Assembly (NCBI RefSeq): GCF_019039035.1
Contig: NZ_JAHNZT010000006.1
Location: 186,001-250,000 of the forward strand
Origin: Citreicoccus inhibens
GTDB taxonomy: Bacteria > Myxococcota > Myxococcia > Myxococcales > Myxococcaceae
Reading direction: 5' to 3'
DNA: 64,000 bases
Shown one piece after another: positions 43,410 through 50,328 of the stretch (position 1 is its first letter; each line of letters opens with the position of its first letter). The notes beneath the pieces were generated by a model. The model worked only from the letters and a program-made list of their open reading frames with translations. It was not told where the DNA came from and made no database searches. A program made the translations under genes and the position numbers.

Positions 43410-44342
43410 TCAGGTGGGCCAGGGCTCGCCCGCGATGACGCGCTCCACGTTCTCCTGATTGAGCCCGTGGTTCATCGCGTAGGCCGCGCTCGCCCCCGCG
43501 CTGGCGGCGACGATCGCGCTCTGCAGCATCGTCGTCACGTCTCCCGCCGCGTGCAGGCCCGGCACCGACGTCTCCTTGAACGGCTCGGTCACCTTCACGA
43601 AGCCCTGCTCGTTGAGTTCGAGCCCCAACCGCCGCACGAACTCCGGCAGGCGCTGAGTCGGCCGAGCGAAGAGGACCTCGCGCGCCACCCGCGCTCCGTC
43701 CGCCAGCTCCACGGACTCCAGGCGCCCGTTCGTCCCGTGCAGCGCGCGCATCGGGCGCTCCTCGACCTTCAAGCCCGCGCGCACGAGGCGCTCGCGCTGC
43801 TCGGCGGTGAGCGCGAGCGGAGTCCCGGCAAAGACGATGAGGTCACGCGACCAGCCCGTGAGGAACAGCGCCAGGTCCAGGTGCGCGGGCTCGGAGGCGA
43901 GCACACCCAAGGGGCGGTCCCGCACCTCCCAGCCGTGACAGTAGGGACACTGGACGATGGAGGTGCCCCACAGGTCGCGGAAGCCGGGCAGCTCTGGCAC
44001 CTCGTCAATGACGCCCACCGCGAGGAGCACGCGCCGCGCATCAACGTGTGCGTCGTCCTCGAGGCGCACGTGAAATCCCGGACGCAGCACGTCCACCGAG
44101 GACACGCGCGTGTCCCGCACCTCCACGTTGGGATAGGGCTGGAGTTGCTCGCGCCCGATGCGGCGGAACTCCGGCGGCGGGGTGCCGTCTCGCGTGACGA
44201 AGCCCTGCATGTGCGCCGCCTTCGCGTTGCGTGGAGGGCCCGCGTCACACAACAGCACGCGCTTGCGCGACCGTCCGAGCACCAGCGCGGCACTCAAGCC
44301 CGCGGGCCCTGCTCCCACGATGACCACGTCGTATCGCTGCAT
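43410..44342 (-). CDS. Thioredoxin-reductase-like FAD oxidoreductase
   Basis: 310 residues. FAD site VVIVGAGPAGLSAALVLG at the N-terminus, second GxG-like fold (GVLASEPAHLDLALF) in the NADP domain, and a C-terminal FAD motif VPGLHAAGDVTT. The redox pair is CPYCHG where true thioredoxin reductases have CATCDG-type motifs, so it belongs to the wider TrxR-like group whose partners are usually unknown. The second fold also departs from the usual GGGNSA nucleotide motif. No thioredoxin gene is adjacent. ATG 44342 opens directly on the FAD strand. It is divergent from the methionine-operon leader, which starts about 150 bases away. Confidence 0.86.
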   Translation of the reverse strand: MQRYDVVIVGAGPAGLSAALVLGRSRKRVLLCDAGPPRNAKAAHMQGFVTRDGTPPPEFRRIGREQLQPYPNVEVRDTRVSSVDVLRPGFHVRLEDDAHVDARRVLLAVGVIDEVPELPGFRDLWGTSIVQCPYCHGWEVRDRPLGVLASEPAHLDLALFLTGWSRDLIVFAGTPLALTAEQRERLVRAGLKVEERPMRALHGTNGRLESVELADGARVAREVLFARPTQRLPEFVRRLGLELNEQGFVKVTEPFKETSVPGLHAAGDVTTMLQSAIVAASAGASAAYAMNHGLNQENVERVIAGEPWPT

Positions 44343-44492: not shown

Positions 44493-44521
44493 TTGACAGC
44501 GCGCGGAGGTGCCGCTACTTC
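44493..44521 (+). promoter_or_regulatory. Promoter of the methionine-operon leader
   Basis: A perfect TTGACA (44493-44498), a 17-base spacer and a weak -10, TACTTC (44516-44521). The expected start at about 44528-44532 would put the leader-peptide ATG (44532) at or within a few bases of the mRNA 5' end, so this message may be leaderless. The consensus -35 is rare in this window. Confidence 0.55.
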
Positions 44522-44531
44522 TGCGGGCCTC

Positions 44532-44609
44532 ATGTCCGCTTCCTTCGCCAACATGTACATGTGTCTGATGCCTGTTCCGGGTGGGCCCAAGCCCGCCGCG
44601 GTCGGCTGA
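44532..44609 (+). CDS. Met/Cys-rich leader peptide of the metY-metX operon
   Basis: 25 codons. The peptide starts MSASFANMYMCLM and ends with a Pro/Gly-rich tail and TGA at 44607-44609. Three Met codons (44553, 44559, 44568) and a TGT Cys codon (44562) fall within six codons, at residues 8, 10, 13 and 11. TGT is uncommon here, where Cys is nearly always TGC, and would slow ribosomes further. The ORF lies between a promoter and a terminator-like hairpin, 223 bases upstream of the genes that make homocysteine, which is where a tRNA-charging sensor would be. No internal ribosome site is seen, which fits leaderless translation. A control function is inferred; translation is not proven. Confidence 0.65.
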   Translation: MSASFANMYMCLMPVPGGPKPAAVG

Positions 44610-44670
44610 GACACAGCCGGCCCCTGGCGAGTCACCGGAGCCCACCCACCCGCGAGGGTCGGTGGGCTTC
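44579..44670 (+). terminator. Attenuator with competing hairpins before metY
   Basis: The terminator stem is 44637-44647 with 44660-44670: a 10-bp arm including GCCCACC/GGTGGGC, a C-C mismatch and four inner pairs (44648-44651 with 44656-44659) around a GCGA loop, then TTCGTCGTTTCC-type sequence. GGGTGGGC at 44579-44586 is exactly complementary to GCCCACCC at 44640-44647, the left terminator arm, so it can act as antiterminator. The same segment can instead pair with GCCCGCC at 44591-44597. A third hairpin, GGTCGGCTG/CAGCCGGCC (44600-44608 with 44614-44622), covers the leader stop codon. A C-rich, G-poor tract further on (about 44731-44800) could load Rho. Read by eye; energies not computed. 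Confidence 0.6.
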
Positions 44671-44763
44671 GTCGTTTCCGGCCTCCGCTCTCGCCTCTAC
44701 CGAGCAGCGTCGCAGCGTCGCAGCGCCGTCCGTTCACCGCCCCGCCGTCCGCAGTTCCACTGA

Positions 44764-46125
<1,362 letters not shown>

Positions 46126-46151: not shown

Positions 46152-47468
46152 GTGAGCCCCCCCTTCCGCGCGCCCCCGCCGCGCTTGTTCGATTTGACCC
46201 TGCCCGATCTGCCCCTGGAGGCCGGCGCGCGAGTCGCGCCGCACCTCGTCCGGGGCTGGTGGTGGGGGCCCGAGGAGGATCTCCCCTGGCTCCATTCCCG
46301 CGCCCAGGTGCTCTCCGAGGACGCGGCGCGCGCGGCCACGTTCCGCGTCGTGCGCCGCACCGCCGCCGAGCAGCGGCCCGTCCTCGAGCCGCTGCGTCGC
46401 CCCGCCCCGCCCCGCGCACCCGCGCCCGTGCCCACCGTGCTCGTGGTGCACGCGCTCACGGGCGACATGCGCGCGGGTGGCGAGGGTGGCTGGTGGGAGC
46501 CCGTCATCGGACCGGGGCGTGCGCTCGACCCCACACGCATGCGGCTGCTGTGCTTCAACAACCTGGGCTCGTGCTACGGCACTTCGGGTCCGGCGGATGA
46601 AGGGTTCCCTCGACGCGTGGACGACGCGCGCTTCGGGCCCGCGACTTCCCTGGAGAAGGGAGACCTGCAAGTCGACGAGCGACTCCTGCCCGCCACGCTG
46701 ACGCCGTGGGATCAGGCGCGCTCCATCCTGTTCGCGCTGGATGCGCTCGGCGTGGACCAGGTGGCGCTCGTCACGGGGGGCTCGCTGGGAGGGATGATCG
46801 TCCTGTGCCTCGCCGCGTTGGATCCCGAGCGCTTCGCGCGCATGGCCCCCATCGCCACGGCGGAGTGCGCTTCGGCCTGGGTGGTGGGCTGGAATCACGT
46901 GGCGCGGCAGGTGCTCCTCCTGGACCCGGAGTATCCCGAGTCCCCCAGGCGGGGACTCGAAGTCGCGCGGCAGCTCGCCACGCTCACCTATCGCGCCGAG
47001 TCGGGACTCGACGCGAGACAGCCTCGGCCCCAGGCGTGGTCATCGCGCGCGCTGTATCCCGTGCAGAGCTATCTGGAGCACCAGGGCGCGAAGTTGGAGG
47101 CGCGGTTCGACGGGCGCTCCTACCTCGCGCTGCTCGGCGCGATGGACCATCACGACCTGTCACGCGTGCCCGAGGCGCGCGGCGGTCCCGGCATTGGCCG
47201 CATCCTCGCGAGCACGTTGAGCATCGGAATCGACCGGGACCAGCTCTTCTTCCCCGAGCACATGGTGGCGCTCGCGCGCCGTCTGCGCGCGGCGGGCCGT
47301 CACGCCGAGCACGCCGTGCTGTCGAGTCCCCATGGGCATGACGGCTTCCTCCTCGAATGGGGCTCCCTGTCGGCCTTGCTGACCCGTGCGCTCGCGCTTC
47401 CACCGGGTGTCGCCGGCCGAGACATGCGCATCCCCGCGCTCTCCGGAGCCGTGGCGCGACGCTCATGA
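46152..47468 (+). CDS. metX: Homoserine O-acetyltransferase
   Basis: 438 residues, somewhat longer than the usual 370-380. An alpha/beta hydrolase fold with the catalytic triad Ser in TGGSLGGMI, Asp in SIGIDRDQLFFPEH and His in SPHGHDGFLLEW. LVVHALTGDM and CFNNLGSCYGTSGP are family signatures. It acetylates homoserine with acetyl-CoA, feeding MetY. The extra length is at the N-terminus, where about 90 poorly conserved residues precede the core. Start at GTG 46152 with GGAG just upstream. Its TGA overlaps the next ORF start in an ATGA junction. Confidence 0.92.
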   Translation: MSPPFRAPPPRLFDLTLPDLPLEAGARVAPHLVRGWWWGPEEDLPWLHSRAQVLSEDAARAATFRVVRRTAAEQRPVLEPLRRPAPPRAPAPVPTVLVVHALTGDMRAGGEGGWWEPVIGPGRALDPTRMRLLCFNNLGSCYGTSGPADEGFPRRVDDARFGPATSLEKGDLQVDERLLPATLTPWDQARSILFALDALGVDQVALVTGGSLGGMIVLCLAALDPERFARMAPIATAECASAWVVGWNHVARQVLLLDPEYPESPRRGLEVARQLATLTYRAESGLDARQPRPQAWSSRALYPVQSYLEHQGAKLEARFDGRSYLALLGAMDHHDLSRVPEARGGPGIGRILASTLSIGIDRDQLFFPEHMVALARRLRAAGRHAEHAVLSSPHGHDGFLLEWGSLSALLTRALALPPGVAGRDMRIPALSGAVARRS

Positions 47469-47818
47469 ACACCGCGGTCATCCCCGGCGCGCGGTGCGCA
47501 TCCCCGGTCGGGCGCAGTGGACCGGCCTGCGCGGCGCGGCACGTTCGCATCCGGGGCCTCGGTGACCCCGAGGACGGAATGCCTGCCGTCATCCAGGTCG
47601 TGCGGCGTGCCCACATCGCGGGGCGCGGTGCGCTGCCCCACCTCACGCGTTGCACGCGCACCCACACTGACTCGCGCAATTGCCTGGAGGACAGGCTGGC
47701 CGCGTTCGTCTATGTCGCGGGCCAGGTGCCCACTCCGCCGGACTTTGAGGACCGACACGGTTCAGCCCTTGCGCACGCACCCGCTCTGTCCTGCTCGGTG
47801 GCTCCGAAGACTTCATGA
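47465..47818 (+). CDS. Unknown ORF coupled between metX and homoserine dehydrogenase
   Basis: 117 residues, unrecognised, with six Cys, many Arg and no evident domain (AVIQVVRRAHIAGRGALPHL, LAAFVYVAGQVPTPPDFED). Evidence for being real: its ATG overlaps the metX stop (ATGA at 47465-47468) and its stop overlaps the next ATG (ATGA at 47815-47818), which chance alone makes unlikely. Against: codon third positions are about 80 percent G/C, less biased than the neighbours, and the composition is odd. It could instead be a decayed gene or a device that only keeps ribosomes moving through a 346-base gap. Confidence 0.45.
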   Translation: MNTAVIPGARCASPVGRSGPACAARHVRIRGLGDPEDGMPAVIQVVRRAHIAGRGALPHLTRCTRTHTDSRNCLEDRLAAFVYVAGQVPTPPDFEDRHGSALAHAPALSCSVAPKTS

Positions 47819-50328
47819 CCACTCCTGTCTACGTCACGCGCTATGCCCCCCTCCTGCTCGACTCCGCCGAGGGGCTCGCGTCCATCGCCTCGCAGCTTGC
47901 TCGCGAGCCTGTTCCGGCCACGCGCGTGGCCGTGCTCTCCTCGCCCGCGTGGCTGACCGCGCGGTTGGAGGCGGCCCTCGCCGCGTCCCTTCAAGGGTCG
48001 AGAGAGCGCGCGCGGCAGGAACTGGATGCCGTGCTCGCGCGCGGCTTGCTGCTCCTCGAAGAAACGGAGCGCAGACTCGGAGCGCTGAGCCCCGCCGCGA
48101 CTGCTGAGGAGGACGGCGCTCGGTATCTCGGTTCGTGGCTGGAACCCGCGCGCCGCGCACTGGACGGGACCCGCTCGACCCATGGGCCCAGCGCGACCCT
48201 CGAGCAAGTCGTGTACGGCGCGGGCGAACGGTTCACGGTCGCACTGCTCGCGCGCCTGCTGGCACGACGTGGCCTGCCCACGTTGGACGTAGACGCAGCC
48301 GACTGGGTGGTGATGGCGGCAGAGCCTGGCCCGGCGCGCATCAGTCGAGAGCACACACGCGCCCGCGTGGCGGAACTCCGCGTTCAATGGGAGGGCCGCA
48401 CCGGCCTGCACGCGGGCGGCTTCGGGCGAAGCCACGATGCACGCACGCCCCTCCGCGTCCCAGGCGGCGCGGACGAGACCGCCGCCGTGCTCGCCGCGCT
48501 CCTCGGCACACCGCTCACGCTCTGGACGGATGTCCCGGGCGTGATGACCGCGGATCCCGCCTACGTCGCGGATGCGCGACCCGTGCCGCACCTGAGCTAC
48601 ACGGAGGCGTTGGAGCTGGCGCACCTGGGCATGACCACGCTGCATCCTCGCGCGCTCGCCATGCTGCGCGACGCGGACGTGCCCTCTCGCGTGCAGCACC
48701 TCGCGCACCCCGAGGAGCCGGGGACCCTCATCGACTCGCATGGCTCGCGCGATGGCAGCCTGCCCACGTGCGTGGTGTCCCTGGAGGACCTCGCGCTGCT
48801 CTCCCTGGAGAGTGGTGCGGTGGAGTCCGCGCGATACGTGGGCCCGCGCGCGCTCCAGGCGCTGGAGGCCGAAGGACTCACCGCGTGGATGGCCGCGCAG
48901 TCGCCTCCCGGGCATGCGGTGGCCATCGTGCTGCCGCGGACCCAGGTCCCTCGAGCGGAGGAAGTGCTTCGTCGCACGCTGGCCGCGGAGCTGGAACGCG
49001 GCGAGCTGGAACCGCCTCGCCTGCGCGCGCCCGTGACGCAAGTCGCGCTCGTGGCCGAGGCCATGGGCCAGGGCGTGAACGTGGCGGGGCGCCTGTTCCA
49101 TCCCATTGGGGCGCTCGGCATCAACGTGCGCGCGGTGGCACAGGCGGCCACGGCTCGCTCGTTGTCCTTCGTGGTGGATGGGCCCGACACCTCGCTCGCG
49201 GTGCGCACGGTGCACGCGGCCTTCCACATCGCCCATGAGGAGGTCAGCCTGCTCGTGCTCGGACACGGCACGGTGGGCAGTCACCTCTTGGAGCAGATCC
49301 GCGCGCAGCAGGAGACGTTGGCGCGTGAGCATGGCGTGCAACTCCACCTGGTCGGGCTCGCGGACAGCCGCCGCGTCCTGTTCTCTCCGGGAGGGATTCC
49401 GCCCAAGCAGTGGCGTGAGCGCATCGAGAGCGTGCCCATCGGCGCCTCGCCTCCCGTGGTGCGCGCCCTGCTGGAGCCGCTGCGCCGGCTGCCCGTCCCC
49501 GTCCTGGTGGACTGCACCGCCGCCGAGGACATGGAGTCCCTCTACCTGGAGGCCTTCCAGCGCGGCATCCACGTGGTCGCCGCGAACAAGAAGCCGCTGA
49601 CGGGCTCGCTGGAGACGTGGGAGCGACTGCGCGGAACGGCCCGTCATCACCACCGGGCCCACCACTACGAGACGACGGTGGGCGCGGGCCTGCCCGTCAT
49701 CCAGACGCTCAAGGACCTGGTGCGCACAGGCGACTGCGTGCACCGCGTGGAGGGCTCCTTCTCGGGAACGCTCGGCTATCTCTGCGATGAGTTGATGCGC
49801 GGCGTGCCGCTGTCCCGCGCCGTGCGCATTGCTCGGGAGCGAGGCTTCACGGAGCCGCACCCTCGCGAGGACCTCGCCGGAACGGACGCCGCGCGCAAAG
49901 CGCTCATCCTCGCAAGAGAGATGGGCTTGCCCCTGTCCCTGGAGGACGTGGTGGTGGAGCCCTTCGTCCCGCAGGCGATGCTGGAAGAGCGTGACGTGGA
50001 GCGCTTCCTCGCGTCGCTCGAAGGGCTCGATGCCACCTTCACCCAGCGCCTCCAGGGGCTGAGGGCCGAGGGAAAGACGCTGCGCTACCTGGCCCGCATC
50101 GACCCGCGCGCGGAAGACGGCGCGGTGCTCCGCGTGGGCCCGATGCCCGTGGGCCCCGAGCATCCCGCGACGCGCCTGCGAGGCTCGGAGGCGTTCGTGG
50201 CCTTCTCCACCGAGCGCTACGCGGACTTCCCGTTGCTCGTGCAGGGCGCGGGCGCTGGCGGTGCCGTCACGGCAGCGGGGGTGCTCGCGGACATCCTGAA
50301 GATTGCCCAGTCCCTGCGCGGGCGCTGA
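47815..50328 (+). CDS. Aspartokinase-homoserine dehydrogenase fusion with degenerate kinase domain
   Basis: 837 residues, the length and layout of E. coli ThrA/MetL. Dehydrogenase part (about 480-837) is intact: VLGHGTVGSHL, AANKKPLTG, YETTVGAGLPVIQTLKDL (catalytic Lys region), GSFSGTLGYLCDEL and PREDLAGTDAARKALIL. It reduces aspartate semialdehyde to homoserine, the substrate of MetX. The kinase part (1-310) is recognisable (GERFTVALLARLLARRG, LWTDVPGVMTADP, TTLHPRALAML), but the N-terminal KFGGTS that binds ATP reads TRYAPLLL. ACT-like sequence (VAEAMGQGVNVAGRLFHPIG) lies between. I infer loss of kinase activity, with a separate LysC elsewhere. The start overlaps the preceding ORF by ATGA. 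Confidence 0.88.
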   Translation: MTTPVYVTRYAPLLLDSAEGLASIASQLAREPVPATRVAVLSSPAWLTARLEAALAASLQGSRERARQELDAVLARGLLLLEETERRLGALSPAATAEEDGARYLGSWLEPARRALDGTRSTHGPSATLEQVVYGAGERFTVALLARLLARRGLPTLDVDAADWVVMAAEPGPARISREHTRARVAELRVQWEGRTGLHAGGFGRSHDARTPLRVPGGADETAAVLAALLGTPLTLWTDVPGVMTADPAYVADARPVPHLSYTEALELAHLGMTTLHPRALAMLRDADVPSRVQHLAHPEEPGTLIDSHGSRDGSLPTCVVSLEDLALLSLESGAVESARYVGPRALQALEAEGLTAWMAAQSPPGHAVAIVLPRTQVPRAEEVLRRTLAAELERGELEPPRLRAPVTQVALVAEAMGQGVNVAGRLFHPIGALGINVRAVAQAATARSLSFVVDGPDTSLAVRTVHAAFHIAHEEVSLLVLGHGTVGSHLLEQIRAQQETLAREHGVQLHLVGLADSRRVLFSPGGIPPKQWRERIESVPIGASPPVVRALLEPLRRLPVPVLVDCTAAEDMESLYLEAFQRGIHVVAANKKPLTGSLETWERLRGTARHHHRAHHYETTVGAGLPVIQTLKDLVRTGDCVHRVEGSFSGTLGYLCDELMRGVPLSRAVRIARERGFTEPHPREDLAGTDAARKALILAREMGLPLSLEDVVVEPFVPQAMLEERDVERFLASLEGLDATFTQRLQGLRAEGKTLRYLARIDPRAEDGAVLRVGPMPVGPEHPATRLRGSEAFVAFSTERYADFPLLVQGAGAGGAVTAAGVLADILKIAQSLRGR

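Follow-up and report, generated by a model that had tools for sequence, protein, structure and literature searches.

A Putative Methionine-Codon Attenuator with Competing RNA Structures Upstream of metY and metX in Myxococcaceae

Introduction

How are the methionine genes metY and metX controlled in Citreicoccus inhibens, and does the short open reading frame (ORF) with several Met codons in front of them take part in this control? Methionine genes are usually described under the control of MetJ, SAM riboswitches or T-boxes. For this locus, a sequence-only reading had proposed an attenuator that responds to charged Met- or Cys-tRNA. Here, we analyzed the locus in the window (the whole stretch of 64,000 nucleotides under analysis, contig NZ_JAHNZT010000006.1, positions 186,001 to 250,000) and in related genomes. 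We consider it likely that the leader is a ribosome-mediated transcription attenuator sensing charged methionyl-tRNA, and possibly cysteinyl-tRNA in those leaders where a Cys codon is present.

Organization of the Leader Locus

The leader and the genes downstream of it are arranged as follows.

44493-44521, + strand: promoter, with TTGACA at 44493-44498, a 17-nt spacer and TACTTC at 44516-44521 (from the sequence)
44532-44609, + strand: leader peptide gene of 25 codons with ATG at 44532, encoding MSASFANMYMCLMPVPGGPKPAAVG followed by a stop (from the sequence and homologues)
44833-46125, + strand: metY, O-acetylhomoserine aminocarboxypropyltransferase (sulfhydrylase), first controlled gene (PF01053, E 6e-138; TIGR01326, E 7.5e-198)
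46152-47468, + strand: metX-like homoserine O-acetyltransferase, second controlled gene (PF00561; TIGR01392, E 6.7e-69, below the curated cut-off)
47815-50328, + strand: fused aspartokinase/homoserine dehydrogenase, ThrA-like (domain searches)

Direct reading confirmed the TTGACA with 17-base spacing to a weak -10, and the positions that the sequence-only reading had assigned to the promoter, the ORF, its Met and Cys codons, the complementary segments and the stem were all correct. In the leader ORF, Met occupies codons 8, 10, and 13, and Cys occupies codon 11 (TGT). Transcription is expected to start at about 44527-44529, so that the mRNA is predicted to be leaderless or nearly leaderless. 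The same prediction follows from the spacing in other leaders, where TTGAC sits 37-41 nt 5′ of the ATG in 36 of 37 leaders with Met codons (Met-type) and in 26 of 31 sister leaders with Cys codons (Cys-type, described below). A generic scanner called neither a promoter nor a terminator at the leader locus, owing to the weak -10 and the interrupted T-tract.

The operon had been read as metY, metX and homoserine dehydrogenase. This holds for metY and metX; the third gene, a possible member of the same transcript, is the fused aspartokinase/homoserine dehydrogenase, which begins 347 nt past metX. On the other side, a divergent gene for a thioredoxin-reductase-like flavoprotein (window 43410-44342, minus strand) has its intergenic region in common with the leader promoter, and among 21 loci this neighbour is present in the window's genus only. 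We also considered control of metY translation by sequestration and rejected it, for the metY ATG lies about 165 nt beyond the end of the hairpin here and still about 57 nt beyond it in relatives (e.g., L040).

Competing RNA Structures

The leader RNA contains four short segments (A to D) and a hairpin (E).

44579-44586, + strand: segment A, GGGTGGGC, left arm of the antiterminator, within the ORF (invariance; covariation with C and D)
44591-44597, + strand: segment B, GCCCGCC, anti-antiterminator, pairing in register with A (7 bp, 4-nt loop; shared register and pairing)
44594-44629, + strand: hairpin E, enclosed by the antiterminator (fold in 21/21; covariation)
44640-44647, + strand: segment C, GCCCACCC, left arm of the terminator, whose partner is A in the antiterminator or D in the terminator (sequence, folding, and covariation)
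44639-44677, + strand: predicted intrinsic terminator C:D, made of GCCCACC, a GCGA tetraloop, GGTGGGC (D, 44661-44667) and the tail TTCGTCGTTT (pairing and covariation)

The region 44528-44680 has a folding energy of -76.6 kcal/mol, compared with -58.7 ± 3.6 kcal/mol for shuffled sequences (z = -4.9). In all 21 Met-type loci, the sequence that begins with A and stops short of D forms a single hairpin in which A:C encloses E. The outer stem of hairpin E (44594-44598/44625-44629) uses B, the inner stem (44600-44608/44614-44622) holds the UGA stop, and the loop is conserved in neither sequence nor length. In addition, a conserved helix, R1:R1′, joins the Met-codon region with bases 3′ of the stop in the window's own fold. 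All 21 Met-type leaders have the same GGTGGGC in A, even though its GGT GGG is also read as two Gly codons. That 44579-44586 could pair either with the left terminator arm or with 44591-44597 had been noticed from the sequence; both pairings are conserved and covarying. Segments A to D of the earlier structure stand, and what it had missed is the conserved hairpin E at 44594-44629 within the antiterminator.

Conservation and Covariation

A DNA search of 98 relatives found matches to the element in 22 genomes, all of the same family (Myxococcaceae), and the hosts include Myxococcus, Corallococcus, Pyxidicoccus, and Archangium. Counting the window's own locus, the leader lies directly 5′ of metY (17) or metX (4) in 21 of 21 loci. 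These include Myxococcus loci in which metX alone follows the leader; for example, M. xanthus AM003 carries MTSPSAMCRMSMPGGLSPSRFG 5′ of metX. A peptide of 22-25 codons is encoded in every locus (e.g., MFVTSAMCMCSMPVPGGPKPAAAG, MTSLNAMCRMSMPGGLMPSRFG, and MNSVAFASCRMCMPCGGPRPAAG). Among the homologues, all indels in the ORF occur in multiples of three nucleotides; the start codon and the UGA stop are retained, and the stop lies 24 or 27 nt from A. Furthermore, every homologue has at least two internal Met codons 5′ of A amid changing neighbours. Cys is missing from some Met-type leaders (MTFAPFAHRRMRMP.., MTSFFAMMMRRMSM.., and MTSLLAMRRMSM..). The proposal of a Met- or Cys-tRNA sensor is therefore retained for Met, which is constant, and is modified for Cys, which is optional.

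One mark of an attenuator is a short leader ORF with codons for the regulated amino acid, and here we found a conserved ORF of 22-25 codons with at least two internal Met codons. A second mark is an operon in the pathway of the sensed amino acid; metY or metX follows in 21/21 loci, and the Cys-type sister leaders precede sulfate uptake genes. A third is a pair of mutually exclusive terminator and antiterminator structures, and both are conserved here.

The pairings were examined in 53 aligned elements. For the antiterminator set, 92.3% of cells were paired, with 10 pairs changed on both sides where shuffles averaged 4.1; for the terminator set (A:B plus C:D), 97.7% were paired, with 5 such pairs against 1.0; in both sets none of 500 shuffles was as high, in a test that is inflated by the relatedness of the sequences. 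The register of A:B is the same in nearly all Met- and Cys-type leaders (95.7% of cells paired), and in C:D 99.7% of cells are paired and 4 pairs are changed on both sides. The alignment model took in helix E and C:D, which are fitted, and did not take in A:B or A:C, so that the counts for these two are not fitted. When a partner was slid by 1-3 columns, the paired cells fell to 27-53%. Moreover, A, C, and D change in concert in two Cys-type leaders, to GGCGGGC/GCCCGCC/GGCGGGC (L061) and GGTGGGT/ACCCACC/GGTGGGT (L076). The comparison across relatives that the sequence-only reading had called for thus showed that the peptide, the Met codons and the A:B, A:C, and C:D pairings are kept across Myxococcaceae, as are the spacing of the promoter and the association with metY/metX.

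Two records deserve mention. At one Corallococcus-group locus (L060, G107:C443:5602-5735), the promoter, the leader peptide and A/B are kept 5′ of metY and the whole C:D terminator is absent, which is either a natural terminator deletion or an assembly fault. The record BNCN01000001.1 (L090) has the title Comamonas sp. KCTC 72670; this myxobacterial element occurs in it, and the record is probably mislabelled.

Cys-Codon Sister Elements

A second element, which the covariance model matched less strongly, is present in many of the genomes that carry the first. Its leader peptide contains 2-4 Cys codons, as in MRTPTTPLASCCCQAPWVGVCPPVA of the window's genome and MTRSTHQTCCCCPASAVGVRPPVA of Myxococcus. 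The element is followed by the substrate-binding protein and permease genes of a sulfate ABC transporter, in some cases with a porin gene in between. The sister element of the window's own genome (L057:3121-3252; contig C38:106620-106751, minus strand), with the leader MRTPTTPLASCCCQAPWVGVCPPVA, lies 5′ of genes for a Porin_O_P protein, a sulfate ABC substrate-binding protein and a CysT-like permease. The A, B, C, and D words are the same in Met and Cys leaders, and the sensor codons and the pathway alone differ. The identity of the sensor codons therefore follows the pathway on one RNA chassis, which is hard to explain unless tRNA charging is sensed. This is the strongest independent evidence for the attenuator, and it goes beyond the sequence-only reading. 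A search of the own genome for the GTGGGC-triple pattern recovered the Met and Cys elements; its other matches resemble coding sequence.

This bears on the suggestion that the leader and terminator are mainly a constitutive filter, or that the peptide or leader RNA acts in trans, in either case with no sensing of Met-tRNA. Trans-acting leader peptides are published (peTrpL; PMC7298713). However, such a filter or trans action would leave both the conservation of the competing pairings and the pathway-matched sensor codons unexplained, and we regard it as quite improbable.

Some sister elements lie elsewhere. In L058:1072-1209, L099, and L100, a poly-Cys leader (MRATSASSCCCQDLRVGARAPFA) and the same switch are found 5′ of a Peripla_BP_2 transporter (heme/B12/siderophore-type), an unexpected target for a Cys sensor. 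Cys-rich leaders also lie 5′ of a DUF4395 protein gene in L061:1127-1278, from another family of the order, and in L062:4060-4203. The concerted A/C/D change in L061 suggests that the chassis may extend beyond the family.

Weaker matches of the model in relatives (L072-L075 and L114/L126) were rejected as attenuators and are ordinary gene-end terminators. Weaker matches lie directly after the stop codons of csp- (cold-shock) and rpsA-like (ribosomal S1-like) genes, as named from their translations. Since these gene-end hairpins are built alike and have the same kind of tail, C:D can be taken as a normal intrinsic terminator type of these bacteria.

Ribosome Position and Polarity

The effect of the ribosome was estimated by a nearest-neighbour thermodynamic calculation on the full leader in 68 leaders (37 Met-type and 31 Cys-type), in which pairing was barred under an assumed footprint that spans 15 nt upstream and 12 nt downstream of the first base in the A-site codon. 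The mean ddG (A:C minus C:D) of the Met-type leaders was +1.6 kcal/mol with the ribosome at the sensor codons, +4.2 kcal/mol with no ribosome and +6.1 kcal/mol with the ribosome at the stop; the corresponding values of the Cys-type leaders were +1.7, +3.4, and +4.7 kcal/mol. The value at the stop exceeded that at the sensor codons in 33 of 37 Met-type and 23 of 31 Cys-type leaders. Thus, a fourth mark of an attenuator, that a ribosome at the sensor codons favours the antiterminator and one at the stop favours the terminator, was found by calculation only, and it supports the classic polarity in which starvation would lead to antitermination. The sensor codons are mostly 12-28 nt 5′ of A, a spacing that appears just sufficient to keep A clear of a stalled ribosome; in Myxococcus, a ribosome on the last Met codon would mask A according to the calculation.

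Several points, among them the interrupted T-tract and the masking of A in Myxococcus, speak against the proposal. Because the partner of A in A:B lies downstream and is not blocked by a ribosome on the Met codons, the switch needs hairpin E to capture B. Where the transcript stops short of D, many species form A:C even if the ribosome is absent or stands at the stop, and the off state therefore depends on kinetics and release. A stable fold of the ribosome-free RNA was tried as a model of the off state and rejected, since A:C is present in several species before D is made. Such folding alone cannot give the polarity, and the full-length competition between A:C and C:D was used for this reason.

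The anatomy of the leader, its conservation, the covariation of the competing pairings, the match between codons and pathway and the calculated preference are established directly, and from them we infer stalling, termination and a response to starvation. The proposed mechanism would run as follows. RNA polymerase would start just 5′ of the ATG, and a ribosome would enter the leader at once. When Met-tRNA is scarce, this ribosome would stall on the Met codons 12-28 nt 5′ of A; its front edge would reach A yet leave it free, and upstream pairings would be prevented. Hairpin E could then form and take B, A:C would close around E, C:D would be blocked, and metY-metX would be transcribed. When Met-tRNA is ample, the ribosome would proceed to the UGA in hairpin E, covering B and E, with A only a few bases behind its rear edge, and the enclosed antiterminator would be lost. 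After release of the ribosome, A would refold with B, C:D would form and transcription would end.

The same parts can also be read in the opposite direction. A ribosome lingering on the UGA would mask B and free A, and the resulting antitermination would signal that the leader is translated efficiently or that its peptide is released slowly (as in a TnaC-like arrest at Gly-UGA), and not Met starvation. Both partners of A, B and C, are downstream of it, and a ribosome at the stop covers B; as long as D is unmade, A:C still forms in many species with the ribosome there. In addition, all 37 Met-type leaders terminate in Gly-UGA, which is followed by C in 30 of them. However, once D is present, A:C is clearly disfavoured by a ribosome at the stop relative to one at the sensor codons, by about 5 kcal/mol for Met-type leaders. 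Gly-UGA can be accounted for as the 5′ arm of hairpin E and is lost in most Cys-type leaders, and we rejected it as an arrest signal because it is not retained in that class. This direction also leaves no role for the Met and Cys codons, whose identity tracks the pathway. We therefore regard it as unlikely. The attenuator responding to Met-tRNA, as first read from the sequence, is supported by the conservation, the Cys sister attenuator and the polarity predicted by folding.

Comparison with Known Systems

The leader element had no match in Rfam at the gathering score or at E ≤ 1, with the Trp, His, Leu, and Thr leaders and SAM-I (RF00162) included. SAM-I itself was found in 3 of 96 family genomes (G056, G013, and G011), none of them with the attenuator; in G056 it lies 5′ of a Cys/Met PLP enzyme gene. 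A riboswitch for SAM or methionine, with a conserved RNA that binds the ligand directly and a fortuitous ORF, would suit the strong conserved structure 5′ of met genes and the usual RNA control of this pathway by SAM riboswitches, but it is highly improbable given the absence of an Rfam match, the in-frame indels, retained start and stop and pathway-matched codons that indicate that the ORF is read, the ORF and A/B/C/D arms that account for the conserved bases while the loop of hairpin E is not conserved, and the restriction of SAM-I to genomes that lack the attenuator. The attenuator would share with SAM-I (the S-box) the methionine genes and premature termination; unlike it, SAM-I senses a metabolite. 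Codon sensing may have replaced metabolite sensing here. On balance, we lean slightly towards a modular attenuator family in Myxococcaceae, in which one GGTGGGC-based chassis was duplicated and re-tuned by swapping the sensor codons, Met(-Cys) for metY/metX and Cys runs for sulfate uptake, and which stands in for SAM-I in the carrier genera. The presence of both the Met and the Cys version within a single genome offers a natural experiment on switching the sensed amino acid, and Myxococcus xanthus, which carries this leader ahead of metX, allows a direct test.

Leaderless poly-Cys uORFs are known in mycobacteria. A survey of Actinobacteria in 2005 described Cys leader peptides at cys operons, with no terminator hairpins (Rho was suspected) and no methionine attenuator (PMC1262725). 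These leaders resemble the present ones in their Cys codons before sulfur genes and in the leaderless start that is predicted here. However, terminator hairpins were not found there, whereas the Met- and Cys-type leaders here share a predicted intrinsic terminator built from the same words. The nearest published methionine case that we found is metL of Streptomyces lividans TK24, a leaderless Met/Cys leader (MSTTSDRTPATEATTTPGARCMCRRMCAF) 5′ of metNIQ, which was proposed as an attenuator in a 2021 reannotation with no clear Rho-independent terminator (PMC8079986). Both are leaders with Met/Cys codons for a methionine-supply operon and have a similar CMCRRM run, and the leaderless start of metL is predicted here as well. 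In contrast, metL belongs to methionine import in an actinobacterium and has no clear terminator, whereas here an explicit covarying terminator and antiterminator precede metY/metX. In the open-access literature, we found no paper on a Met-codon leader of this kind in myxobacteria, and a Met peptide-codon attenuator with a fully resolved covarying terminator and antiterminator is undescribed as far as we found.

The general kind is known, namely, trp/his-type attenuation. The trp, his, leu, and thr attenuators of Proteobacteria consist of sensor codons, a leader peptide and mutually exclusive antiterminator and terminator structures, and the present leader has all of these. It differs from them in its Met sensor with optional Cys, in having A and its alternative partner B both inside the ORF, in the position of the stop codon inside the hairpin enclosed by the antiterminator, and in a sequence unrelated to those Rfam families.
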